A DNA stretch of 64,000 bases from Thiosulfativibrio zosterae (GCF_011398155.1 NZ_AP021888.1:2020001-2084000); one strand, 5' to 3'; shown: positions 5,069-38,326, counted from the stretch's first letter. Made by a program: numbers and translations. The notes: generated by a model not told the origin, from the letters alone.

Positions 5069-5179
5069 GGTCTTTGAGTTAAATAAATAAAGAAATTATT
5101 CTACCCCATCGACATAAAACTCTTTGTCAATATTATGAATATTTTAAGTTTTAGTCTTTAAATTTGCTGACACAAAACC

Positions 5180-6424
5180 TTAAACTTCAACTGCCAACTG
5201 ATTATCAATCGTATAGGCCACCATCGCCTTTTGGTAGCACACCTCTAGATTGTCATGGAGAACATCACACACCTTTGCATCTAACTTGCCTTGCTCTTTT
5301 AGATTATTCAAAATCTCAAAAGCTGTTTCGGCAGATAACGCATTACGATAAGGTCTATTTTGAACCAATGCTTGAAAAATATCAGCCACGGCTAAAATGC
5401 GCGCGTTGAAGGGAATTTGCTCACCTTTTAAATGATAGGGGTACCCCTGTCCATCCAAAGTTTCATGGTGCAAAGAAGCCAGAAATGCAATGTCTTTAAA
5501 CCCTGTAATTTGAGTGAGAATCACATTGGAATCAAATCCGTGGCGATTCATTTCAATGCGTTCATCCACATCTAATTGCCCCGGTTTATTTAAAACCCTG
5601 TCTTTTACTTTGAGTTTGCCTAAATCATGAAACAAACCCGCCAGTTCTAAATGTTCCTGCTCAACTTGGGTCAAGCCCAATAATTCAGCCAAATACCTTG
5701 CTAAACAGGCAACCCCTATGGAATGCTCGGAAGTAAAAGGACTTTTTGCATCAACGGCTGCTGAAAACAGTAGCGAAAACTCCTTAACCTCGTCAAAACT
5801 AAACTCAACTGGCGACTGTTCGGCAATCCAATCTGCAAAAAAACGCCGCAAAGACTGCTCTTCTAAGAAATACCAAAAAGCATCATTGCCAGCTGTTTCG
5901 ATAAACTTATCCACCAACTCTGGACTGAAAAAGGATCCGGACAAACTTTGCAAAACTTTAAAAATATGCGCACGCATATCCATAAAAGAGTCTTGATTTT
6001 TAGCCCGTAAAGCGTCCACCCGATCGACCAAATAAATTAAATTAGCATCTATTTGAGTGGCTTGAGATAAATCACTTGGGAGATTTTGCCAATGGGTATG
6101 GTGAAAACGCACCGCTAAAGCATAATCTTGAAATAACCGAACGGATTTCATTAGCTCAAACCCGCGTTCAGCATGAAGATAGGAGTTATCCCAGTCTAAT
6201 TCGTTGATTAAATGACTGTGCACTATGGTGGAAGAAACGCCGCAATCATGCAGCATTCCAGTGTAAATAATGTCGTCGATTCTTTGTTTAGGCCAACCGA
6301 GTGTCTCGCCCACTTTAGCGGCCATATAAGCCACTCGCTTACCATGTAAAGTGTCATCTATACCGACAAAATCCAAGGCTTCAGACAGTGTAAAAGTGAC
6401 CTCTCTTGGATTTAATAGATACAT
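5180..6424 (-). CDS. Double HD-domain protein with C-terminal HD-GYP, putative c-di-GMP phosphodiesterase
   Basis: 414 residues. The N-terminal half (about 1-190) carries a degenerate HD domain (HGKRV, then MLHDCG, then FHHTHW). The C-terminal half (about 220-400) is a full HD-GYP domain with AGLFHDLGKLKV and HHETLDGQGYP, followed by ARILAVADIFQAL. HD-GYP proteins hydrolyse cyclic di-GMP with a bi- or tri-iron centre; the GYP triad is intact, so activity is plausible. There is no receiver domain or membrane segment, so the protein is probably cytosolic. It lies 24 bp downstream of a hybrid histidine kinase on the same strand, suggesting the kinase controls it. The true substrate is not proven by sequence. 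Confidence 0.85.
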   Translation of the reverse strand: MYLLNPREVTFTLSEALDFVGIDDTLHGKRVAYMAAKVGETLGWPKQRIDDIIYTGMLHDCGVSSTIVHSHLINELDWDNSYLHAERGFELMKSVRLFQDYALAVRFHHTHWQNLPSDLSQATQIDANLIYLVDRVDALRAKNQDSFMDMRAHIFKVLQSLSGSFFSPELVDKFIETAGNDAFWYFLEEQSLRRFFADWIAEQSPVEFSFDEVKEFSLLFSAAVDAKSPFTSEHSIGVACLARYLAELLGLTQVEQEHLELAGLFHDLGKLKVKDRVLNKPGQLDVDERIEMNRHGFDSNVILTQITGFKDIAFLASLHHETLDGQGYPYHLKGEQIPFNARILAVADIFQALVQNRPYRNALSAETAFEILNNLKEQGKLDAKVCDVLHDNLEVCYQKAMVAYTIDNQLAVEV

Positions 6425-6448
6425 GAAAACCTCCAGTAGCCTTTGTGC

Positions 6449-8740
6449 TTAATTAAATTTTTGTAAAACCAACTTTAACGCCTGTAAGTTAATCGGTTTG
6501 CCTAAAAAATCATCCATTCCAGAAGCAAAACACATTTGACGATCTTCATCGAGCACATTGGCCGTTAGAGCAACAATGGGTTTTAGACGGTTTTGTGCAC
6601 CTGCCTTGCCAGCACGAATTTGTTTAGAAGCCTCATAACCATCCATTACGGGCATTTGGCAATCCATCAGAACCAAATCAACCTCGTTTTCTTGAAGCTT
6701 ATCCAATGCCTGTAAGCCATTTTCGGCAGACACATACTGACATCCAAATTTTTTCAGTAACGCTTCTATGACCTTTCTGTTCACAATATTGTCTTCAACC
6801 ACTAACACTTTTAGGTTAGATAAATCTGTATTCAGGGTTTGAGCACCCATCGGTGCTTTGGGCAATACCGCCGCCACTTGATTCAGTGGCAAGGTTATCC
6901 AAAAGGTTGCTCCCGCTTGTGGCTCTGAATCTACGCCTATTTCACCGCCCATCAATTCTGTCAATCGCTTACAAATCGACAAACCCAATCCTGTTCCGCC
7001 AAATTTTCGGGTGGTTGAAGCATCTACTTGGCTAAAAGGTTTAAACAACTTGGTTTGGTCTTCTTTGGATAAACCCACTCCAGTATCCCTAACCGAGACT
7101 TTGAGTATTTCGCCATCAAAAACCTGTATTTTTTCAAGTAATAAAGTGATGGTACCTTTCTGAGTAAACTTAATCGCATTGCCCATCAAATTGGTTAAGA
7201 TTTGTTTTAACTTTTGCTCGTCACCTAAAATCCAATCTAAATCACTCGAGATAAACTCTAAATTTAACACCAAGTTTTTAGCCATCGCGGCGGGTTTTAA
7301 CAAAACCAATAAACCGTTTGCGGTATTCACCAATGAAAATGGTGTTTTCTCTATCTCAACTTTACCGGCTTCAATTTTAGAAAAATCTAAAATATCGTTG
7401 ATTATGCTCATCAAACTTTGGCCGCTTTGGCGAATAATCTCAAGTGCTTGGCGAGTTTCTGGCGTGACTGGAGAATCCAACAATAAATCCGTCATACCGA
7501 TCACCCCATTCATGGGTGTTCGAATTTCGTGACTCATATTGGCCAAGAACTCGCTTTTGGCTTGATTAGCCGCATCCGCTCGCAACTTCTCTTCTTGCAG
7601 CTTGACCTCTGCGAGCTTACGGTCGGTAATTTCAGCAAAAGAACCGACCATTCTAATGGGATTGCCTTGCTCATCACGCTCAACAATATTGCCGCGGTCA
7701 TAAACCCAAATCAACTTGCCATCTCGTCTACGCATTTGGTGCTCAGACACATAAGGGGCTTCGCCTCTAAAACAAGCCTGAATTTTTTCCATAATTTTAG
7801 GTTGGTCTTCTGGCAATAAACACTGCACGAAATCATCCATCATGTGCGTGAGATCAGATTCCTCATAAGCCAAAATCTTAAACCATTGTCGATTATGCGT
7901 GAGTGCGCCCGAGGGAATGTGCCAATCCCAAACGCCTTCTTGAGTGGCTTGCATAACATAGTTAAGGCGTTTTTCACTGTCTTCAATTTGTTTTTGAGCC
8001 GTGACTATGTCAGTAATATCGTGCGCAATGACTAAAATTTGTTTGTTACCTTTTTCATCCAACAAAGGTTTTTTAATCGATTGAAAATGTCTGACTTCAC
8101 CCGTTTCGGCATTAGTACTGTCTTCGATAACAACTTCTGTTTCAAACTTTGTCATAATCTGCTGCACACTTTCTTTAAAAAATTGTGCTTGCTCTTGATT
8201 GCCCGTGAAATATCCATCTTCCTTGCCAATCATTTCTTCAGGTGTCGCATCATACAAATGGGCAACCGCTTGATTCACCAAAATAAAGTTACCCTCCCAA
8301 TCCTTCATCACGATGACATCAGGGGTTTCATCTAACGCAGTGCGCATTAATACATTTTGATGATGTAATTCTTGATGGATTGCAGCGTAAGCAGATAAAT
8401 CCGTTATTGACAGGTAAACCAGGACTTCGTCATTTTCAGTGGTTAGATTGAAAGCCAAGTGGTAAGAAACCAGCTGAGATTTGCCGTCAATTAACTTGGT
8501 GGTTGTATATTGATTGGAACAGGGCGTTCTAGACTCTGCAGGATTTTGGGGAACTTTTAGAAGATATGCCGCAGGGATTGTTTGGGTAATCAATTGTTCT
8601 AAGGCGATACAAGTTTCTTCACCCAGACCATTTAATAATTGCGCCGCTTGATGATTAAATGCTTTGATTCTCCAAGCCGCATCATAAATAATCAAGGCAT
8701 TCGGTAAAGATTCTATCGCTTGCAACACAATTAACTCCAT
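6449..8740 (-). CDS. PAS-containing hybrid sensor histidine kinase
   Basis: 763 residues with no clear transmembrane segment, so probably a soluble sensor. In order: three PAS/PAC-like modules (about 1-120, 125-245, 255-385; the last ends in GSFAEITDRK), a HisKA domain with phospho-acceptor His404 in FLANMSHEIRTPMNGV, a HATPase with the N box NLMGNAIKFT and G boxes DTGVGLSKED and GTGLGLSICKRL, and a C-terminal receiver (about 648-763) with the phospho-Asp at 693 in LVLMDCQMPVMDG. There is no Hpt domain, so phosphate must be passed to a separate partner. The downstream HD-GYP gene on the same strand may be the functional output. A copy of the palindromic repeat sits just upstream of the start. 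Confidence 0.93.
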   Translation of the reverse strand: MELIVLQAIESLPNALIIYDAAWRIKAFNHQAAQLLNGLGEETCIALEQLITQTIPAAYLLKVPQNPAESRTPCSNQYTTTKLIDGKSQLVSYHLAFNLTTENDEVLVYLSITDLSAYAAIHQELHHQNVLMRTALDETPDVIVMKDWEGNFILVNQAVAHLYDATPEEMIGKEDGYFTGNQEQAQFFKESVQQIMTKFETEVVIEDSTNAETGEVRHFQSIKKPLLDEKGNKQILVIAHDITDIVTAQKQIEDSEKRLNYVMQATQEGVWDWHIPSGALTHNRQWFKILAYEESDLTHMMDDFVQCLLPEDQPKIMEKIQACFRGEAPYVSEHQMRRRDGKLIWVYDRGNIVERDEQGNPIRMVGSFAEITDRKLAEVKLQEEKLRADAANQAKSEFLANMSHEIRTPMNGVIGMTDLLLDSPVTPETRQALEIIRQSGQSLMSIINDILDFSKIEAGKVEIEKTPFSLVNTANGLLVLLKPAAMAKNLVLNLEFISSDLDWILGDEQKLKQILTNLMGNAIKFTQKGTITLLLEKIQVFDGEILKVSVRDTGVGLSKEDQTKLFKPFSQVDASTTRKFGGTGLGLSICKRLTELMGGEIGVDSEPQAGATFWITLPLNQVAAVLPKAPMGAQTLNTDLSNLKVLVVEDNIVNRKVIEALLKKFGCQYVSAENGLQALDKLQENEVDLVLMDCQMPVMDGYEASKQIRAGKAGAQNRLKPIVALTANVLDEDRQMCFASGMDDFLGKPINLQALKLVLQKFN

Positions 8741-8749
8741 CTATTTTTA

Positions 8750-8761
8750 ACCAGGCCTGGT
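8750..8761. repeat. Palindromic repeat copy 2 (exact)
   Basis: ACCAGGCCTGGT in the 48-bp gap between the hybrid kinase and rlmH, flanked by TTTTTA on the left and GAAATTTAA on the right. It separates the rlmH-containing operon end from the kinase start. Confidence 0.9.
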
Positions 8762-8788
8762 GAAATTTAAGCCTATTTAAGCACAAAA

Positions 8789-9259
8789 TTACTCACGATG
8801 ATAAGGGTGATTTTGCAAGACTGACCAAGCTCGATAAACTTGTTCTGCCACCAACACTCTAACCAAGGGATGAGGCAGAGTCAGTTTGGACAAACCCCAC
8901 TTCCAACTGGCCTGCTCAATTAAATCTGACTGTAAACCATCAGGACCGCCGACCACCAAAGCAATATCTTGCCCCGAACCTAACCACTCATCTAGTTTCT
9001 GTGAAAACTCTAACGTGGTCGTCTGTTGACCATGTTCATCTAAAATCACCAAACGCACCCCTTTTGGAATCGCTGCAACAATCCGCTTGGCTTCTTCTTG
9101 CTTATATTGTTCTGCTGTGCCCGTCTTACCGCGAGTTGCCATCGGCAGTTCATGCAACTTTAAACTGCAACTTTTGGGTAATCGCTTGGCATATTCTTGG
9201 TAACCATCCAATACCCATTTGGGCATTTTCTGGCCGACCACAATAAAATGAATAATCAC
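8789..9259 (-). CDS. rlmH: 23S rRNA (pseudouridine1915-N3)-methyltransferase RlmH
   Basis: 156 residues (E. coli 155), a SPOUT-class methyltransferase that methylates pseudouridine 1915 in helix 69 of 23S rRNA on assembled 70S ribosomes. The C-terminal knot contains LVVGGPDGL and the conserved LSKLTLPHPLVRVLVAEQVYRAW region, ending in the typical HPYHRE tail. It sits 12 bp downstream of rsfS on the same strand, the usual rsfS-rlmH pair. Confidence 0.97.
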   Translation of the reverse strand: MIIHFIVVGQKMPKWVLDGYQEYAKRLPKSCSLKLHELPMATRGKTGTAEQYKQEEAKRIVAAIPKGVRLVILDEHGQQTTTLEFSQKLDEWLGSGQDIALVVGGPDGLQSDLIEQASWKWGLSKLTLPHPLVRVLVAEQVYRAWSVLQNHPYHRE

Positions 9260-9271
9260 AAAAAGACTGTT

Positions 9272-9619
9272 TTATTCTGCAATCGTTTGACTGGCGGGCT
9301 GCACTTCCCACAATTTTTCCAATGCATAATGCGCACGTGCTGATTCCGTCATTACATGCACAATCGCATCACCCAAATCGACCAACACCCAATCAGGCTC
9401 TGGTCCCGCTTCAACACCCAAAGGCTCTTCGCCAGCATCTTTTACTTCTTGCGCCACGCGAGAACCCAAAGAACGAACGTGCGTGGTTGAAGTACCCGTG
9501 GCAACTACCATTAAATTGGTGAAGGTACTGATTTGCGAAACATCCATGATTTTAATATCACGCGCCTTACCGTCGTCTAAAGCTTTATAAATAATGTCTT
9601 GTTTGGTTTGTAAATTCAT
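9272..9619 (-). CDS. rsfS: Ribosomal silencing factor RsfS
   Basis: About 115 residues from the ATG at 9619; an ATG four codons upstream (9631) is in frame, but its GGAG lies only about 3 bases away, whereas 9619 has GGA at about 8 bases. RsfS binds ribosomal protein L14 (uL14) and blocks subunit joining in starvation. Family signatures include KARDIKIMDVS, MVVATGTSTTHVRSL and the GxEAGPEPDWVLVDLGDAIVHVM block. It lies between nadD and rlmH, all on the same strand, the conserved nadD-rsfS-rlmH order. Confidence 0.94.
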   Translation of the reverse strand: MNLQTKQDIIYKALDDGKARDIKIMDVSQISTFTNLMVVATGTSTTHVRSLGSRVAQEVKDAGEEPLGVEAGPEPDWVLVDLGDAIVHVMTESARAHYALEKLWEVQPASQTIAE

Positions 9620-9653
9620 TGAAAATTCCATGCTCCATAAAAAATAAAAAGCC

Positions 9654-10292
9654 CTATTCTTGATAGAGCTGGTGTTGTTGAATATAGTTAATCACAGGTG
9701 ACGGCAATAAATAATCGACACAAACGCCCTGCTTTAAATAGCTGCGCAACGCCGTTGCGCTGAGTTCTAATTGGGTAATCGGCACATCCACAATTTGACC
9801 AAAAGGTTCGGTCAGTTTAGGCACCCAACTTTTCTTAAATAACTGCCCCACCTCACCGCTTTGCGGAATCGGCTCTCCTGGGCGATGCGTAATGGCTAAA
9901 TTGGCCAACTTTAAAATGGTTTGCCACTCAAACCAAGTATCAAACTTAGCAAAGGCATCGGTTCCCATCATCAAAACCAATCCTTTAGCTGGATAACGCT
10001 TGGTCAAAGTTTGCAGAGTATGCACCATATAAGAAGGGCCACCCTGCTCAATTTCAACTTTATCCAGCACAAACTTCGGCTGCGAGGCGATGGCTAAGGC
10101 AATCATGGCACAACGATGCTCGGCTGAAACACTGGGCTGATCGCGATGCACCGGCTTATAGCACGGAATAAAACGCACCTCTTCTAGCCCCAAAGCCAGC
10201 TGAACTTCTAAGGCTGGGCGTAAATGTCCAAAGTGAATTGGATCAAATGTGCCGCCATTGATGCCGATATATTGACCGCTAAACGCATTCAA
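9654..10292 (-). CDS. nadD: Nicotinate-nucleotide adenylyltransferase NadD
   Basis: NadD transfers AMP from ATP to nicotinate mononucleotide in NAD synthesis. The nucleotidyltransferase motif GGTFDPIHFGHL lies at the N-terminus. I favour a TTG start at 10292: it gives 212 residues (E. coli 213), has the strong ribosome-binding site AGGGAGGA 10 bases upstream, and lies downstream of an extended -10 box at 10324-10329. An in-frame ATG at 10337 would add 15 residues before the family's normal start and would lie upstream of that promoter. The TTG start leaves a short gap to the divergent DnaJ-related gene; the ATG would overlap it. Confidence 0.93.
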   Translation of the reverse strand: MNAFSGQYIGINGGTFDPIHFGHLRPALEVQLALGLEEVRFIPCYKPVHRDQPSVSAEHRCAMIALAIASQPKFVLDKVEIEQGGPSYMVHTLQTLTKRYPAKGLVLMMGTDAFAKFDTWFEWQTILKLANLAITHRPGEPIPQSGEVGQLFKKSWVPKLTEPFGQIVDVPITQLELSATALRSYLKQGVCVDYLLPSPVINYIQQHQLYQE

Positions 10293-10323
10293 TTTGCCAA
10301 AGTCCTCCCTGCCACTTTTTGCT

Positions 10324-10332
10324 ATTATAGCA
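10324..10332 (-). promoter_or_regulatory. Extended -10 promoter of nadD
   Basis: On the minus strand TGCTATAAT combines a consensus -10 hexamer (TATAAT at 10329-10324) with the TGn extension. It is followed about 15 bases later by AGGGAGGA and the TTG start at 10292. The -35 region (GGTGGA) is poor, as allowed for extended -10 promoters. Confidence 0.55.
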
Positions 10333-10335
10333 AGC

Positions 10336-10944
10336 ATGTCAAATTATCCACCCGAAATTCCATCACAGCTTGAAAGTGCCTTTTTTGAACACCTCAAAGA
10401 CGGTCATGCCATTCAAGAACACGCTTTGCTTAAGAATTTAACCGAACAAGGCTTTCAAGGATTTAAACCCTCCCTTGAACCACTTGAACTGTTTCAAGCA
10501 CACTTTTTGTGTTTTCACTTGCTCTATCGACTGCAAACCAAGTGGTTCAGTGAAGGACTGGGTTGGTTAGAAATTTATACCCTCAATATCCAACTGCACC
10601 CTATGCAAACCGCGGATTCCAATGCGCTAACGCAAAATGATGAACTGCGTGCCTACTATTTAAACTATCAACACTTTCTAGACACCCAAGCCGTTGATGT
10701 CCAAAATCTGATGGATAATTTTTGGTCGCAATTCGATTTACAAAGCCTGCCCTATGAAACACTCAAAGCCGATTTAAATTTGTTAGAAATCGACCCAGAA
10801 ACCCCTTTAGAAGATCTCAGTCTTACCCAAATCAACCAGCAATATCGCAAACTCTGCGCACAACACCACCCCGACAAGGGCGGCAAAACCGCAGACTTTC
10901 AAGCGCTCAGTCTAGCGGCGAATCGCTTGCGTAAATGCATCTAG
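10336..10944 (+). CDS. DNAJ-related co-chaperone-like protein
   Basis: 202 residues from the ATG at 10336. The N-terminal two thirds match the helical DNAJ_related type (aromatic-rich, LCFHLLYRLQ and YLNYQHFLDT), and the C-terminus is a truncated J-domain with the invariant HPD in LCAQHHPDKGGKTADFQAL. J-domains stimulate DnaK ATPase; the client of this subfamily is unknown. No Shine-Dalgarno precedes the ATG, and a -10-like TATTAT at 10323-10328 could give an almost leaderless message. It diverges from nadD and converges on proA, with one base between the stops. Confidence 0.85.
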   Translation: MSNYPPEIPSQLESAFFEHLKDGHAIQEHALLKNLTEQGFQGFKPSLEPLELFQAHFLCFHLLYRLQTKWFSEGLGWLEIYTLNIQLHPMQTADSNALTQNDELRAYYLNYQHFLDTQAVDVQNLMDNFWSQFDLQSLPYETLKADLNLLEIDPETPLEDLSLTQINQQYRKLCAQHHPDKGGKTADFQALSLAANRLRKCI

Positions 10945-10945
10945 C

Positions 10946-12199
10946 CTAAATACGAATATGTCCGTCGCCTAATACGATGTATTTTTGTGACGTCAATCCT
11001 TCTAATCCCACCGGGCCACGCGCATGGAATTTGTCGGTTGAAATGCCGATTTCAGCACCCAAGCCATATTCAAACCCATCGGCAAAACGCGTAGAGGCAT
11101 TCACCATCACCGAGCTGGAATCGACCTGTGCTAAAAATTGACGCGCACGGGTGTAGTTTTCGGTAATGATGGACTCGGTATGTCCAGAGCTGTATTGCGC
11201 AATATGCGCCATGGCTTCTTCAACATCCGCCACCACCTTAATCGACAAAATCGCATCCAAATATTCAGTCGCCCAATCCTCATCGCTCGCCGCATTCATT
11301 GATACTATGGCTTGTGCCTTAGCGCAACCGCGACATTCCACACCTTTTTCTTGATACATTTTAACCAGGCCTGGTAGGATTTCAGCTGCCCTAGACTCGG
11401 CAATCAATAAGGTTTCCATGGCATTACATACGCCATAACGATGGGTTTTGGCGTTATAAGCCACTTTGACCGCTTTGTCGGCATCAGCATCTGCATCAAT
11501 ATACACATGACATATACCATCTAAATGTTTAATGACCGGCACGCGCGCTTCTTCGCTGATGCGAGCAATCAAGTTTTTGCCTCCACGCGGTATAATCACA
11601 TCCACGAATTGTGGCATGGTAATCAAAGCGCCCACCGCAGCTCTATCCGTGGTTTCGACCACTTGCACTGCGGCAGTGGGTAATTCAGCCAATTCCAAAC
11701 CTTTTTTGATGCAACTCGCTAAGGCTCTATTAGAAAATGCCGCTTCAGAACCACCACGCAAAATTGCTGCATTCCCCGATTTTAAGCATAAGGCCGCCGC
11801 ATCAATCGTCACATTGGGACGCGATTCGTAAATAATTCCCACCACCCCTAAAGGTACGCGCATTTTACCGACTTGAATTCCGGATGGGCGGTAGCTCATA
11901 TCAGAGATTTCGCCAATCGGGTCGGCCAAATTGGCGATTTGACGCAAGCCTTCTGCCATGCTTGCAATGCCTTTGTCCGTAAGGGTTAAACGGTCTAACA
12001 TGGCCGCGTCCAAACCATTGGCTTTGCCCTGTGCTAAATCTTTAGCGTTTTCAGCTTTTAAAAACTCAGCTTGCGCTTCCAAGCTGTCGGCCATTGCCAA
12101 CAAGGCTTGATTTTTTTGAGCCGTTGAAGCCGTCACCAAAATGCGACTGGCCGCACGAGCTTGCTGACCTAAGGTTTGCATATACGCTTGAATATCCAT
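10946..12199 (-). CDS. proA: Gamma-glutamyl phosphate reductase ProA
   Basis: 417 residues, exactly the family's usual length. ProA reduces gamma-glutamyl phosphate to glutamate semialdehyde with NADPH in proline synthesis. The aldehyde-dehydrogenase fold shows the cofactor-binding segment [24 protein letters not shown], and the active-site Cys in [12 protein letters not shown]. The C-terminal block [28 protein letters not shown] is diagnostic. An exact palindromic repeat copy at 11364-11375 lies in the coding sequence, read as L-P-G-L-V without disturbing the frame. It is 11 bp downstream of holA; proB is not in the window. Confidence 0.97.
11364..11375. repeat. Palindromic repeat copy 3 (exact), inside proA
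   Basis: ACCAGGCCTGGT read as Pro-Gly-Leu-Val on the minus strand. The flanks do not extend the inverted repeat far beyond the core. Confidence 0.9.
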
Positions 12200-31352: not shown

Positions 31353-34300
31353 TTAAGAAAAGGCTAAGGGATTGGTAAAGTGATTGAACTGTTCAATGGA
31401 CATAGGTTTTGAAACGATGTAACCTTGAATTTCATCGCAACGACATTCCACTAATTTATCCAGTTGAGCTTGGGATTCCACCCCCTCAGCAATCACCCGA
31501 ATATCCATGGCGTGCAACGCCGAAATAACGGCTTTTACCAGATTATAGTCGCGTTTATCTGAGTCGATGTTACGAATAAAAGAGATATCGAGTTTTACCA
31601 CATCAAAGGGTAGGTTTTTCAGTAACGCCAACGAAGAATGTCCGGTACCAAAGTCATCCATATGCACTTCTAGCCCCAAAGACTGCATGCGTTCAACTGA
31701 GTTTTGAATGCTTTTCAAATTATTCATGAAAGCACTTTCGGTAATTTCTATCCCCAAATAATGGGGGTCGACATCCGAGGTGTTTAACAAATTAGCCAAG
31801 TTATCAACAAAATTGGGGTCTAACAATTGAATGGGCGACACATTCACTGAAATGCGCGTTAAGGGTTTGCCTTGTGCTTGCCAAGTTTTGAGCTGCGCTA
31901 AAGCCGACTCTAATACCCAAAAACCCACTTTTATAATCAGACCAGAACTTTCCAGTGCTGGCACAAACTGGTCTGGCGAACGCAAAGCACCATCGTAATT
32001 CCAGCGTAACAAGGCTTCATAACCAATCACCTGATGACTCTCTATGGCCATTTGTGGCTGATAATAGACTTCAAAATCTTGCTTCTCAAAGGCGCTATAC
32101 ACTTCTGAGTCGAGGGTAAAGGCCTGAAGGGTTTGCACACCCATTTGCGGTTGATACAAGGCGATATGATTCGTTGGCATTTTTTTGGCTTGATACATGG
32201 CGGTATCTGCCAAGCTGAGTAGTAAACCCGTATCGGTTGCATCTTCTGGAAAGCGCGCAATCCCGATACTGGGTGAAATATGCAACTCATGTTTACTCAA
32301 AACAAACGCTGGCGCAAAACAATCTACGATCTTCTGGGCAAGGGCTAACAACTCCGCATCTGAATTCACACCTTCTACAATCAGGGTAAACTCATCGCCC
32401 CCCATACGCGCTAACACATCAGAGGCGCGCACTTGATTTTGAATGCGCTGAGAAGTTTGGATGAGTAATTCGTCACCCACATGATGACCTAGGGTGTCAT
32501 TGACACTTTTAAACTTATTCAAATCTAAAAACATGATGGCAAAAGGGGTTTTATTGCGTTTGGCACGGGCATAGACTTGCGCCAATTGCATATCAAAATA
32601 ACTGCGATTAGGCAGCCCTGTTAGAGCATCATAATAGGCCATTTTTTCAATACGCACTTGCGCTTCGTGCAAGTCGGTGATGTCGTGAATCATTAACAAA
32701 AAGGCTGGCTCACCTTGCCACTCGGTTTTAGAAACCGTCAACTCGGCTTTGCCAGGTGTTTTGTTGGGGCGCAGAATATCCAGCTCAATTTTCTCTTCTG
32801 CCGAGCTGATGGGGATACCAAAACTATTGCCTAATAAAAGGTCTAAAGAACGGTTTAATAATTTTGCTGCTGCGGGATTGGCAAACTGGATAACCCCAGA
32901 GGCATTAATCACCATAATGCCCGACTGATTTTTTTCGACCACGGTGGAAAAATAGGTTTGCGTTTGTTGCATGGCTTTTTGGCTTTCTACCACCGCAGTC
33001 ACATCTATGGCAGAGCCTACATAGCCGGTAATCTCGCCTCTTCCATCATATTCTTTAAAAATATCACACTTTAACTCAAGCCTTGCGCCGCTGGATTTAT
33101 GGCGCCAAAAAAGCGTAACCGACAACTGTGAATCTTGTGATAACTCAAATTCTCTTAAGCGCATATTCAACTCAAGTTGATCAGCGTCTTGATCCAATAA
33201 CTGGGCAAAGGGTAATTTTTTAAACGCCTGAACCGGCCAACCGACCAGCTCGGCACCAAACTCATTCATCATGGTCACTTTGAAAGAACCATCCAGTTCA
33301 AAAATAACCGCATTCACCACCGCTAAATACTTCTCAGCCTGCTCTTTAGCACTGCTTAATTCATTGCGTATGGCTCGCGCTTCGCTCACATTTGAAATCA
33401 TGGCTGACACAAAAACTTGCTGATTAAGCTCAAAACTGGATATGGATAGACTCACCCAAATTTTAGAGCCTTTTTTGGTTAAGGCCTCCATTTCTTGAGT
33501 AGTGCCCAGCACTGGCCCCTTTTTGGTGATTAAAAACCGTTCAAACCCTTCTACAGCCTTGCTACGGTTTTCCATAGGCACCAGCGTACGGTGCAAATCT
33601 ATGCCAAATAAGCCGCCCGGTTCGTAGCCAAAAATTTTATGAGCAGCCGGATTGGCAAATTCAATCAAGCCTTTGACATTCATAATCACAATACCTTCTA
33701 GGGCTGTTTGCGTCAGCTGTTTAAATTGCTTTTGAGAAAACTCGCTTGAAATCAAGGCATCTTTAAGTTCTTGCGTTAAAGCACTTCTGGCTTTTTCTGA
33801 ATTAGAAAAGGCTTGACCAACCAGGGTTAATCGACGATTTTGACTGTGCAATATGCCTAAAAAGGCCATTAACAGACCAAGCATGATTAAACCCACCACA
33901 CTTTCTAGACGATGTTTTTCCCACAACACTTTTAAAGACAAGGGCTCTATAAGTCTGACAAAAGGGGGAATATTTAATGATTCCATTAAACGACGCACTT
34001 TTTCGTAATTGGCAAGTGTTGTCCAAGATAAATACCCCAAACTGCCCGGCATTTCGATATTGGGCATCAACAGTAAGGTTGCGGCAATTTGGTCTTTTAA
34101 ATTAATCGGCACATTCGGCATGGCCATCAAAGCCCATTCAGGATACAGCTCGGTACTTAACAAAAACGGAAAAGTTTGTTTGCAATCCAAAGCACACTCA
34201 CTGTCTAGCGGTTTTTTTGGCGCCAAAATGGTCAGCTCATTTAGGTTTAACTGGCCTTGTGTTGCCAACTGTTCTAAAACGCCCGTTCTCACCACACCCA

Positions 34301-34916
34301 CATCTGCTAAACCAGACAAAACCGCAAACACCACGCCCTCATGAGTATGGTAATAATGCAATTTTTGCAACTCATTAAAATTAACGCCTTGCTGAGCAAA
34401 CTCACTTTCTGCGAAAATTTTGCCACCCGCAGACCTAGCGTTGACAAGGCCAATTCGCAGATTAGCGGTTTGACTCAGGTCTGTTAGCTGGGTATTTTCT
34501 GAACGCCTAAAAATAACACTGCCCATTTGGCTGAAGCTAACAGAGCCAAAATGTCTTTTAAGGGTCAAAACCCCTGAGAGTTGATATTCATAAGAAAGCT
34601 GCAAATACTGCAATGGATTGGTAATAAGGAAGGTAATTTGTTGCTTTTCAACCGCTTCGTTGATTTCAGAAAAGTTTAACGGCAAGAGTTCAAATCGATG
34701 CTCGGGGCGTTTTTGTTGCAGATAGGCCAACATAGGTTGCCAATCGGTGCGCGCTTGGGCTTTACCATTAAAGGCCAAAACGCCTATCACAACATTATCT
34801 GCCCAAGCAAGCGGCACAGGCGCTATACACAACAGAATGACGCTCAGCGCCAAGAACTGCTTAACCAGTTTTGCCTTTAGCCAGGGCGTCCAACGGGCAT
34901 TGAGTGAGCGCGTCAT
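31353..34916 (-). CDS. PhnD-like sensor / PAS / GGDEF-EAL bifunctional c-di-GMP protein
   Basis: 1187 residues. A signal peptide (about 15-40) leads to a periplasmic PhnD-like solute-binding domain (about 40-335, starting NVVIGVLAFNGKAQARTDW). A membrane helix (about 345-365) is followed by three PAS modules, then a GGDEF domain with intact ARMGGDEF preceded by the I-site RASD at the expected five-residue distance, and an EAL domain with YEALLRW, MDDFGTGHSSL and AEGVES. Both catalytic domains look complete, so synthesis and breakdown of c-di-GMP are both possible. Last gene of a five-gene operon, 8 bp after the KaiB-like gene. The periplasmic ligand is unknown. Confidence 0.93.
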   Translation of the reverse strand: MTRSLNARWTPWLKAKLVKQFLALSVILLCIAPVPLAWADNVVIGVLAFNGKAQARTDWQPMLAYLQQKRPEHRFELLPLNFSEINEAVEKQQITFLITNPLQYLQLSYEYQLSGVLTLKRHFGSVSFSQMGSVIFRRSENTQLTDLSQTANLRIGLVNARSAGGKIFAESEFAQQGVNFNELQKLHYYHTHEGVVFAVLSGLADVGVVRTGVLEQLATQGQLNLNELTILAPKKPLDSECALDCKQTFPFLLSTELYPEWALMAMPNVPINLKDQIAATLLLMPNIEMPGSLGYLSWTTLANYEKVRRLMESLNIPPFVRLIEPLSLKVLWEKHRLESVVGLIMLGLLMAFLGILHSQNRRLTLVGQAFSNSEKARSALTQELKDALISSEFSQKQFKQLTQTALEGIVIMNVKGLIEFANPAAHKIFGYEPGGLFGIDLHRTLVPMENRSKAVEGFERFLITKKGPVLGTTQEMEALTKKGSKIWVSLSISSFELNQQVFVSAMISNVSEARAIRNELSSAKEQAEKYLAVVNAVIFELDGSFKVTMMNEFGAELVGWPVQAFKKLPFAQLLDQDADQLELNMRLREFELSQDSQLSVTLFWRHKSSGARLELKCDIFKEYDGRGEITGYVGSAIDVTAVVESQKAMQQTQTYFSTVVEKNQSGIMVINASGVIQFANPAAAKLLNRSLDLLLGNSFGIPISSAEEKIELDILRPNKTPGKAELTVSKTEWQGEPAFLLMIHDITDLHEAQVRIEKMAYYDALTGLPNRSYFDMQLAQVYARAKRNKTPFAIMFLDLNKFKSVNDTLGHHVGDELLIQTSQRIQNQVRASDVLARMGGDEFTLIVEGVNSDAELLALAQKIVDCFAPAFVLSKHELHISPSIGIARFPEDATDTGLLLSLADTAMYQAKKMPTNHIALYQPQMGVQTLQAFTLDSEVYSAFEKQDFEVYYQPQMAIESHQVIGYEALLRWNYDGALRSPDQFVPALESSGLIIKVGFWVLESALAQLKTWQAQGKPLTRISVNVSPIQLLDPNFVDNLANLLNTSDVDPHYLGIEITESAFMNNLKSIQNSVERMQSLGLEVHMDDFGTGHSSLALLKNLPFDVVKLDISFIRNIDSDKRDYNLVKAVISALHAMDIRVIAEGVESQAQLDKLVECRCDEIQGYIVSKPMSIEQFNHFTNPLAFS

Positions 34917-34924
34917 TAAATGGC

Positions 34925-35182
34925 TTATTTAGTCAGCTGTAAAACAATATCATTGAGTTTTGTAAGGTCAATAATCAGTTTTTTTACTGGCTCTGGAAGG
35001 TTTCTGATGAGCGTTGGCGTTGCGAAAATATTATTTTCTGCCGCAATCTCTGGTTTTTCCATGACATCAATCAACTCTAAATCCCATGGTTCGATCATAT
35101 TGGCTTGCAAACTTTCTTTAAAAGCCGCAATTTTGCTTTCGCTGGACTTATTAGCCACATAAAACAGTCTAAATTTATACAT
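34925..35182 (-). CDS. KaiB-like thioredoxin-fold protein
   Basis: 85 residues from ATG 35182, which has GGGAG seven bases upstream; a longer frame starts at 35206 but overlaps the receiver stop. The sequence matches KaiB along its whole length: N-terminal RLFYVAN strand, ELIDVMEKPEIAAENNIFATPTL (KaiB: VIDV..NP..A...ILATPTL) and LPEPVKKLIIDL. In cyanobacteria KaiB is a clock protein that binds KaiC and competes with the KaiB-like domain of SasA; no kaiA or kaiC occurs in this window. The neighbouring histidine kinase lacks a KaiB-like domain. Its context, between a receiver and a GGDEF-EAL gene, suggests a role in signalling, inferred only from position. Confidence 0.85.
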   Translation of the reverse strand: MYKFRLFYVANKSSESKIAAFKESLQANMIEPWDLELIDVMEKPEIAAENNIFATPTLIRNLPEPVKKLIIDLTKLNDIVLQLTK

Positions 35183-35205
35183 AATCACTCCCGGCATTTC
35201 AAGCA

Positions 35206-35568
35206 TTATAAATAGGCTGAAACGATTTCGTTAATTTGGTCTAAGGTAATGGGTTTTGCCGCCAATTGAAACTCAATGCCATCATCTCTGACTTGTTCTA
35301 GCTCTTTGGTAAATTCTTTTGCAAAAGCCGTTACCACATAAACCGGCACATCTGGATAGAGGGCTCTTAAGGCTCTTAGGGTTTCGACCCCGTTCATTTT
35401 GGGCATTTTTAAATCTAAAAACACCAGCGCTGGTGGCCAACCTTGAACCATCTTCATGGCTTCAACACCATTTTCAGCCAGTTTTAGATTAAGCTCAGCA
35501 ATTCCCTCTAACGCTAATTCAAACGAATCTCTAATAGACTGTTCATCATCCACCACTAAAACATTCAT
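35206..35568 (-). CDS. Single-domain response regulator (CheY-like receiver)
   Basis: 120 residues consisting of a receiver alone: acidic pair in VVDDEQ, phospho-Asp52 in LVFLDLKMPKMNG, Thr in VVTAFAKEF and Lys in AAKPIT. With no output domain it must act by protein contact. It has a good ribosome-binding site (GAGGAAAAG) and lies between the histidine kinase and the KaiB-like gene, so the kinase is its likely phosphodonor. Confidence 0.92.
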   Translation of the reverse strand: MNVLVVDDEQSIRDSFELALEGIAELNLKLAENGVEAMKMVQGWPPALVFLDLKMPKMNGVETLRALRALYPDVPVYVVTAFAKEFTKELEQVRDDGIEFQLAAKPITLDQINEIVSAYL

Positions 35569-35627
35569 TCTCTTTTCCTCACCATTCTATAAAGACTTTG
35601 CCCTTAGGCAAAGGTTACTTAAATTAT

Positions 35628-37130
35628 TCAGGCTGCTTGGCATTGCAAAATCATTTGAAAACAGGCACCTTCATGCGTTGGTGACACCAACAAACGCCCA
35701 TGCATATCGGCCATTAATTGGGTCGAAACGGCCAACCCCAATCCGGTTCCTTTGCCCACTTCTTTAGTGGTGAAAAACGGATCAAAAATTTTAGACTTAA
35801 TGGCATCCGGAATGCCACATCCGTTATCACAAATCTCTAAAACCAATTCACTCTCTTGAACAGCGATTCTAAAGGTAATTTTAGGATGCTCCAAAGCTGG
35901 CATTTCATTAAGGGCGTCACGGGCATTAACCACTAAATTCAAGACCACCTGCTCTAGTTTATTGGGTTCTCCAAATACTTGGGGCAACTCCATGGGGGCA
36001 TCGACTTCGGTTTGAATATTAAAGCGTTTTAAATCTGGGTGAACTAAATCAAGCACCAGGGTTAAAACTGGCAGTATATCAAAATAGGTGTTTTCGGTGG
36101 TTTCTTGTCGTCCAAACTGCAACATGTTTTTCACAATCTTTTGCAGTCTAGCCAATTCTACTTCAGCTTTTATGAGAATATTTTTGCTTTTTGAATCCTT
36201 ATCACTCATGGCCTTTTCTACATAGGTCACATAATTCAAAACGCCCATTAAAGGATTGTTCAACTCGTGCGCCACGCCCCCAACCAAAACCCCTAAAGAA
36301 GACATTTTTTCGGTCTTCATAAGTTCTACTTGCGTTCTTTTAATTTGCTGTAACAAAGATTCTGCCGCCAACTTAGCTTTTTCGTTTTCGGCTGCCAAAC
36401 TAGAATATTTTTCAATAGACACCATATTGTCAGCCAAACTGACACGCATTTTTTCTAAGCTGTCAGCCAAGCCACTGAGCTCAACGGTTGACACAGGGCG
36501 CACAGGTGCTCCTAATTCCCCTCGACCAAACCTACGAGCATCTGCGGCCAACTGTGCAATGGGTTGACGAATATAGTGCTTCACCCAAAACAATAATCCA
36601 ATCGGAATAAACCAACCAAACAATAAACCTGCCCACAGCGTATTGCTGTAAAACGCGCTGGTTGCCCTTTCTTGGTCTTCTATGGTTTTTTGAAACAAGC
36701 GTGTATGCGCCAGTAAGCGCTGATTAATGGCCAGTAAATTGGTGCTGTTATGTAATTTAGCGGCATATGAACTGTCATTTTGCCCAAAGCTCAACTCTGC
36801 CGCTTCTTTTAAGTCGATAATGAGTAAACGAATCATGACTAGACTGGCATATCCCTCTACTTGCGAATATTTTGAAACTAAATTTTCCGCCTGACTCCAC
36901 TTACTAAACCACTGCTGTTTGGAACGCTCACTTTTGGTTACGGTATATTCAGCCGTTAAAAATGTCAGGTCGGTGGCATGCTCTCTTAATTCATCAGAAA
37001 AATGACTTAACTCAGCAAACTTTAATTGTTGATTCCATTGCCAGCTGCCAACCGCAACCAGTAACAGGGTTAAAACCGAGGCACTGAACATTAAAGTCAT
37101 GATTAAAGATCGGATACTATGCAGTTTCAT
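35628..37130 (-). CDS. Membrane histidine kinase (HAMP-HisKA-HATPase)
   Basis: 500 residues from ATG 37130 (GGAG seven bases upstream; an in-frame TTG one codon earlier is less likely). TM1 (about 10-30) and TM2 (about 165-190) enclose a helical periplasmic sensor of about 135 residues. A HAMP domain ([20 protein letters not shown]) and a coiled coil lead to HisKA with His288 in [13 protein letters not shown] and a HATPase with [10 protein letters not shown] and [10 protein letters not shown]. It follows the solute-binding lipoprotein gene by a few bases, so that lipoprotein may be its periplasmic input. Confidence 0.92.
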
Positions 37131-37134
37131 CAAG

Positions 37135-38133
37135 CTACTCCATCAACATCACAGCTTGAGGACGGATTTCGAGCAAATAACTCGAATTAATTAAACCCAA
37201 AGAATTAAAAACAGTGTCTGCGTTGATATAACCATCTTCTTTGAGCCAATTCACTTCTTGTTCTAGCGTGATTAACATGGCGTGCTCCAAGCTGACATTA
37301 AAATCTGCCAATCGCCAATAGGGCGTTAAATCTTCTGTTGACATATCTAAAGCTTGCGCCAAAATGCTTAAGGACTCTTCTGGGTTTAAACGCAAAAATT
37401 TCACCGCCTTTATCAAACCCTCTAACAACCCCTTAACCTGCTTAGGCGTTAAATCAGATGGCTTGCCACCCACTAATAAGTCATATTGAATATAGATGCC
37501 TGGAAAAGCCAAACTTTTGGTCTGCCCGGGCATCAGCGCCAAAGCTTGCGAAACATAAGGTTCTCGCATAGAAAAAGCATCAATTTCACCCGTCATTAAG
37601 GCATTCACCAAGTCATTCGCTGGCATAAATTTGCGGATAACTTGGTCATGCAGTTTTTCAGATGACTCTAAAACGGAGTGCATAAAGAAATGGACCGCTG
37701 AATATCGCTGAGTGCCGATGCTGTGTCCTGCCAAATCCTGCAAGGTCTGAATGCCCCTATCAGTTCTCACCACTAGACGATTAACATTCGATGAGCTATA
37801 AATTGAAGCGTAGGTGACGAGATTTTTGTTTTTTAAAGAGTTAAAAATGAAAGGCACATCTGAGGTACTGACAAAGTCACAGGCACTGGTTAACAAACAA
37901 TCGTTCATGGCGACTTTGCCCGATGGGAATACCTTAAAATCCACATCTAAACCCTGCTCTTTAAAAAAACCTTTCTTTTGCGCAATAAACATTAAACCGC
38001 TAGAAGGCTGTTTAGCGACTCCAACGGTCACGGGGGTATTGATTTTAATTTCGGTAGACTCGCGCTCACAACCCAAAAGGCTAATCCCTAAGAGAGGCAC
38101 TATTAAAAGTAACAATCCAAACTTGAGTTTCAT
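37135..38133 (-). CDS. NMT1/SsuA-type solute-binding lipoprotein
   Basis: 332 residues. A lipoprotein signal ends in L-L-G-C with Cys22 as acylation site. The rest resembles NMT1/nitrate-sulfonate-taurine type binding proteins: VGVAKQPSSGLMFIAQKKGFFKEQGLDVDF, LVVRTDRGIQTLQDLAGHSIGT and MTGEIDAFSMREPYV. No ABC permease or ATPase gene is nearby; the gene heads an operon of signalling proteins, so it may act as a sensory co-receptor rather than in transport (inference). The ligand is unknown. Confidence 0.85.
   Translation of the reverse strand: MKLKFGLLLLIVPLLGISLLGCERESTEIKINTPVTVGVAKQPSSGLMFIAQKKGFFKEQGLDVDFKVFPSGKVAMNDCLLTSACDFVSTSDVPFIFNSLKNKNLVTYASIYSSSNVNRLVVRTDRGIQTLQDLAGHSIGTQRYSAVHFFMHSVLESSEKLHDQVIRKFMPANDLVNALMTGEIDAFSMREPYVSQALALMPGQTKSLAFPGIYIQYDLLVGGKPSDLTPKQVKGLLEGLIKAVKFLRLNPEESLSILAQALDMSTEDLTPYWRLADFNVSLEHAMLITLEQEVNWLKEDGYINADTVFNSLGLINSSYLLEIRPQAVMLME

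Positions 38134-38249: not shown

Positions 38250-38326
<77 letters not shown>

Follow-up and report, generated by a model that had tools for sequence, protein, structure and literature searches.

A KaiB protein apparently outside any Kai clock in a conserved five-gene signalling cassette

KaiB is a circadian-clock protein and KaiC is the clock ATPase, and the locus described here raises the question of what a KaiB protein could do in a row of signalling genes with no kaiC beside it. The window, i.e., the whole stretch of 64,000 nt that was analysed, is part of a complete genome of 2.65 Mb on one contig, gammaproteobacterial to judge by its relatives. Five ORFs are located on its minus strand at positions 31353-38133, and they code, in order of transcription, for a solute-binding lipoprotein of SsuA/NMT1 type, a HAMP histidine kinase, a lone receiver, KaiB, and a PhnD-PAS-GGDEF-EAL protein. 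ORF calls and Pfam agree with an earlier note on this DNA as to the five genes, their strand, their domains, and the identity of KaiB, and all five products contain domains exceeding the Pfam cut-offs. From each gene to the next there are 1 bp, 59 bp, an overlap of 1 bp between receiver and KaiB, and 8 bp. A tRNA-Pro(GGG) gene (38250..38326, minus strand) is located directly upstream of the operon and marks its boundary from outside. No ABC transporter gene adjoins the cassette, and in this respect too the neighbouring genes bear out what had been noted.

The KaiB gene (34925..35206, minus strand) encodes 93 aa without cysteine, and its start overlaps the stop of the receiver gene by 1 bp. An alternative start, ATG 35182, is preceded by the ribosome-binding site GGGAG and would give a protein of 85 aa and a receiver-KaiB gap of 23 bp instead. 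The product passes the KaiB domain cut-off (PF07689, 53.4 bits, cut-off 27 bits), but it failed both equivalog cut-offs for clock KaiB, with 45.0 of 145.3 bits for TIGR02654 and 45.2 of 110 bits for NF006798. A redox role of the thioredoxin-like kind is unlikely, because the protein has no cysteine.

Statements on the whole genome are based on family (profile) searches. Exactly one KaiB-domain match (PF07689) was found in the genome, the stand-alone gene of the window, so no SasA-type kinase is encoded there and the kinase of the cassette is, as previously claimed, devoid of a SasA-like KaiB domain. The KaiC-superfamily profile PF06745 gave four weak matches in three genes, which were recognized by NCBIfam as RadA, DnaB, and RecA, and TIGR02655 had zero matches. 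A KaiC hidden elsewhere in the genome was considered and rejected on these results; the absence of KaiC noted for the window thus extends to the genome, and there is no KaiC that could claim the window KaiB as its partner. KaiA was not found either, nor was KaiC found in the genomes of the two relatives described below (loci L010 and L011). A Kai clock or a KaiBC timer would have its KaiC in the same complete genome, and this genome encodes none.

The family set comprised 63 genomes, which is the whole order as sampled. KaiB was above the cut-off in three of them, namely the window genome, G028 (L010), and G043 (L011), and one further match was sub-threshold. L010 and L011 carry the same five genes in identical order, so the set noticed in one genome is conserved together in two relatives. 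Their products are 38-41% (lipoprotein), 30% (kinase), 53-55% (receiver), 32-44% (KaiB), and 30-38% (GGDEF-EAL protein) identical to those of the window, while no gene flanking the window cassette recurs beside the other two. Among the family genomes other than G043, those without KaiB have neither a receiver nor a lipoprotein of the cassette type: the best lipoprotein outside the cassettes reached 77 bits versus 583 and 635 bits for those inside, and no other receiver passed E 1e-18. Conserved order, unrelated flanks, and joint absence together indicate a real, patchily distributed module and not a chance neighbourhood, and the divergence, to 30-55% identity, argues against recent transfer. 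The module is inherited as a unit, all or none.

The first gene (37135..38133, minus strand) encodes the lipoprotein of 332 aa (PF09084, NMT1, 65.6 bits; SsuA_fam E 9e-32), with the lipobox LLGC and Cys22. The second (35628..37133, minus strand) encodes the membrane histidine kinase of 501 aa, arranged as TM, periplasmic helical domain, TM, HAMP, HisKA, and HATPase_c, with the phospho-acceptor H289 in the motif AHELNNPL. At 11 loci in ten other genomes of the class, the strongest relatives of the lipoprotein have as their immediate gene neighbour a HAMP kinase, a GGDEF-EAL protein, or a comparable regulator; a transporter partner was not recognized at these 11 loci. The periplasmic sensor region of the window kinase (about aa 29-165; 36639..37049, minus strand) is homologous to that of the partners of these lipoproteins (hhalign 97%, E 1.6e-11; control alignment 3%), and the motif LTxEY...ER..QW is common to these helical domains. 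The position of the lipoprotein relatives beside signalling genes, together with the homologous sensor domains, points to a recurrent transporter-free sensor pair consisting of a lipoprotein and a helical-domain receptor, and the window has the same composition, a binding protein beside a membrane sensor without an ABC permease. A lipoprotein without transporter beside a signalling protein is therefore a common arrangement and not odd here. The earlier note had regarded two unrelated solute-binding folds without a transporter as unusual. This view does not hold, as lipoprotein/kinase pairs are common, L011 lacks the PhnD domain, and the SsuA/NMT1 and PhnD folds are both of the periplasmic-binding-protein type II.

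At loci L124-L134, SsuA/NMT1 lipoproteins have kinases or proteins of GGDEF type as partners, and the helical periplasmic domain shared by these partners has no Pfam name; an undescribed receptor-domain family is possible. At L129 (8140-10056), the lipoprotein is paired with a hybrid kinase that includes a receiver, which amounts to the kinase and receiver genes of the window fused into one.

The third gene (35206..35568, minus strand) encodes the stand-alone receiver of 120 aa (Response_reg, 74.5 bits), which is the best conserved of the five proteins. Residues D7, D8, D52, T80, and K105 are all present, and it looks fully phosphorylatable. The cassette thus has both halves of a two-component system, a kinase with its phospho-acceptor His and a receiver with the D, D, D, T/S, and K residues. 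Read conventionally, genes 1-3 would pass a signal from the lipoprotein via the kinase to the receiver. The receiver and KaiB genes overlap by 4 bp in L011, and in both L011 and the window the two are predicted to be translationally coupled.

The fifth gene (31353..34916, minus strand) encodes 1187 aa with the architecture PhnD(TtrS-like)-TM-PAS(x3)-GGDEF-EAL (Pfam Phosphonate-bd, PAS, GGDEF, and EAL). Its periplasmic PhnD/TtrS-like sensor at aa 44-312 (33981..34787, minus strand) matches PF12974 with 106.9 bits and the TtrS model NF040750 with E 5e-40, the latter below the whole-protein cut-off. In the GGDEF domain (32169..32639, minus strand), the active-site GGDEF and RxxD (RASD) are intact, and so are EALLRW, DDFGTG, EGVE, and QGY in the EAL domain (31404..32102, minus strand). 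The motifs of a bifunctional c-di-GMP enzyme are found in L011 as well, whereas the L010 protein (7995-11669) has the degenerate active sites AGDVF, LDNLGAE, and ALGVE, and c-di-GMP turnover is therefore unlikely as the output there; this last protein would act instead as a binding partner or c-di-GMP reader. As the L011 counterpart is without the PhnD domain, that domain is not essential to the module. PilZ effectors are encoded in the window genome. The organism has a soxB above the curated cut-off and is thus most likely sulfur-oxidising, and sulfur anions as the putative ligands of the sensors, suggested by distant families, would fit such an organism.

The reading tentatively preferred here, at a little less than an even chance, is that the five genes form a KaiC-independent signalling module, a two-component/c-di-GMP switch for sulfur compounds in which KaiB would bind the adjacent receiver. 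The lipoprotein would bind a small anion in the periplasm, with a sulfonate or sulfur oxyanion as the probable ligand guessed from distant families, and would dock on the kinase at its helical periplasmic domain; the kinase would then phosphorylate the stand-alone receiver. Binding of KaiB to the receiver would depend on fold or phosphorylation, in the manner of fold-switched KaiB and the CikA pseudo-receiver in cyanobacteria, and the complex would set the balance of cyclase and phosphodiesterase in the adjacent GGDEF-EAL protein, whose own sensor is TtrS-like. In this scheme, KaiB would contribute a conformational step that turns on or off slowly, with no clock involved. Binding of KaiB to the receiver is favoured by the coupling of the two genes and by the CikA precedent, in which fold-switched KaiB uses its beta2 strand to bind the pseudo-receiver (PMC6378743) and contacts the alpha1-beta2-alpha2 face of the CikA receiver (PMC12632262). 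The analogy is imperfect, because the CikA pseudo-receiver is not phosphorylatable and the window receiver apparently is.

The earlier note had proposed much the same flow, with ligand signals reaching kinase and receiver and a c-di-GMP change as the outcome. The conserved genes, the absence of KaiC, the periplasmic inputs, and the intact GGDEF and EAL motifs of the window are in line with it, but the c-di-GMP outcome is not universal, given the degenerate L010 protein. Of the two findings that the note named as refuting, genes not conserved together and a kaiC elsewhere with this KaiB as its clear partner, neither was obtained. KaiB as a switchable binding partner is likewise plausible, with a low-confidence ground-state model of the window protein (see below), but no binding to a partner was shown. 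In L010, receiver and KaiB are naturally in frame via a linker (stops were read as Ser for modelling), and the model of this fused receiver-linker-KaiB showed no docking with confidence (pTM 0.53).

Alternatively, KaiB could act on the kinase, as a SasA-like input subunit in trans that would modulate autophosphorylation via the HAMP/DHp region. SasA combines a kinase with a KaiB-like domain in one protein, and its model gives a weak match to the window KaiB. Moreover, a second, unrelated KaiC-less KaiB occurs in two alphaproteobacterial genomes (L087, with KaiB at 6231-6536 and kinase at 5137-6234, and L088), where its gene overlaps that of a short kinase-like protein with HATPase_c only. This alternative is nonetheless unlikely: each of the three cassettes has KaiB next to its receiver, away from the kinase, with overlapping frames in two, and the kinases are the least conserved of the proteins (30%) and the receivers the most.

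Binding to the receiver must also be weighed against the possibility that KaiB was left over from a KaiC-KaiB-GGDEF-EAL operon, a type common in Gammaproteobacteria, and is now drifting or serving as operon filler. A PF07689 match was present in 33 of the 369 genomes sampled from the class, and among the KaiB loci examined in class and phylum, KaiC was nearby at 33/41, a GGDEF/EAL protein at 20/41, and both at 14/41; KaiB beside c-di-GMP enzymes is thus common, and KaiB without KaiC is not. One such locus, L054 (6332-12027), has in one row a similar lipoprotein of the broad type, HAMP-PAS-GGDEF-EAL, a KaiC-like protein, and KaiB. Residues were compared between the three orphan KaiBs (window, L010, and L011) and 41 other KaiBs, most of them with KaiC nearby. 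Positions invariant in the latter are not kept by the orphans, with G78 (41/41) replaced by I/V/I and A24 (41/41) by K/L/M, and G16, S21, and N27 are also lost. All this would suit a remnant, yet all three genomes, though divergent, have kept an intact KaiB frame, and 23 columns are still invariant across the three proteins, including the FATP turn, DV, and P-E-x-A-x-E-N. Genomes without KaiB are without the entire cassette, and in the tree the three orphans form a clade (support 99/96) on a long branch, separate from the KaiBs of L054 type. An origin from an L054-type KaiC-KaiB operon was rejected as the tree keeps them apart, with the long branch and weak deep support to be borne in mind, and the remnant explanation as a whole is improbable. 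KaiB-like matches at L052 and L058 were discarded as thioredoxins.

A further explanation retains the contact with a partner but not the switch, i.e., the orphan KaiB would be permanently in the thioredoxin-like, fold-switched state as a constitutive adaptor. G89A/D91R stabilizes the fold-switched state of T. elongatus KaiB (PMC6378743), and at these locking positions L011 has A/R, the window protein Q/T, and L010 T/S. Fold-switched KaiBs also occur in nature; the Legionella protein is one of them and was crystallized in this state (PMC10808063). The other KaiBs, most of them KaiC-linked, vary at positions 89 and 91 as well (G 39%, D 32%), however, and AlphaFold placed the window KaiB, with a 3-sequence subfamily alignment, in the ground-state topology with its C-terminal helix-strand, although at low confidence (pLDDT 68), which makes it a weak test. 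The L010 KaiB model has the ground-state topology as well. Foldseek of the window model gave 17 matches with E<=0.001, all of them ground-state crystals, and fold-switched structures appeared from rank 18 down. A constitutively fold-switched KaiB is attractive for the A/R pair of L011, but since the models disagree and the positions vary elsewhere, it was rejected as a general explanation and is held to be quite doubtful. The KaiB fold switch may have been retained and not locked in the thioredoxin-like fold; the models lend this little weight, because AlphaFold-type predictions on KaiB subfamilies are contested (PMC10836070).

Two separate units with other partners, lipoprotein-kinase and receiver-KaiB-GGDEF-EAL, instead of one pathway have little probability, since the five genes are inherited jointly or not at all in the family and with unrelated flanks, even though lipoprotein-kinase pairs stand alone in other genomes and the 59-bp kinase-receiver gap contains a hairpin and a promoter-like site. 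This hairpin (CTTTGCC-TAAG-GGCAAAG; 35596..35613, minus strand) is GC-rich, is followed by the T-rich tail TCTTTAT, and is a consensus match only, for which the background is not negligible. It may separate two expression units, or it could be an attenuator. The promoter scan was at background level, and the terminator-like sites (16 vs 9.3 in shuffles) are not evidence of function.

Compared with known systems, the module of the preferred reading, with KaiB on the receiver, apparently combines known parts in an undescribed way, with KaiB outside any Kai clock. KaiABC and KaiBC clocks and CikA-bound KaiB have in common with it a KaiB domain over the Pfam cut-off and a receiver-type partner or neighbour (PMC6378743, PMC12632262). 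In contrast to them, the window KaiB is without KaiC and KaiA, is below the equivalog cut-off, and lacks G78, A24, G16, and S21, and its neighbouring receiver keeps the phosphorylation residues. NspS-MbaA of Vibrio cholerae is similar as a transporter-free periplasmic binding protein co-encoded with a membrane c-di-GMP enzyme (PMC8967002), but in NspS-MbaA proper the binding protein is of polyamine-binding PotD type and has a GGDEF-EAL partner. In the window, it is of SsuA/NMT1 type and has a histidine kinase as its immediate partner, a receiver and KaiB come between these and the GGDEF-EAL protein, and the latter carries its own PhnD-like sensor. The kinases TtrS and ThsS detect tetrathionate and thiosulfate by means of PhnD-like domains (PMC5408782). 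The fifth protein matches the TtrS model NF040750, but only in the sensor part (137 bits, cut-off 750); here the sensor is fused to PAS-GGDEF-EAL and not followed by HisKA/HATPase as in a TtrS kinase. KaiC-KaiB-GGDEF-EAL operons of Gammaproteobacteria (such as L046, L047, L051, and L054) also have KaiB beside a c-di-GMP enzyme, and L054 an SsuA-type lipoprotein, but they include KaiC, their KaiBs are of other clades, and no stand-alone receiver or kinase is so arranged. Legionella pneumophila encodes its KaiB with KaiC in a kai operon. This protein (Lpp1115) is similar as a non-cyanobacterial KaiB with a stress-related non-clock role (PMC10808063, citing Loza-Correa 2014). The literature searched yielded no description of a kinase-receiver operon with a KaiC-less KaiB.

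The surprising part of the locus is KaiB without KaiC and not the lipoprotein, and it suggests that KaiB is usable as a signalling part without any clock. The further idea that this KaiB lineage left the KaiC clock and became a slow metamorphic relay from receiver to c-di-GMP in a dedicated sensor operon of sulfur oxidisers, a timer without a clock, is rather speculative and more probably wrong than right. The conserved KaiC-less clade makes KaiB function without KaiC directly testable in small operons, and the orphan KaiBs are natural sequences for studying the fold switch apart from KaiC binding. In an exact-peptide scan of the genome contigs, the only match was a Fibrobacter KaiC-KaiB-KaiB locus (L009, 3638-6171), where KaiC is followed by two tandem KaiBs.
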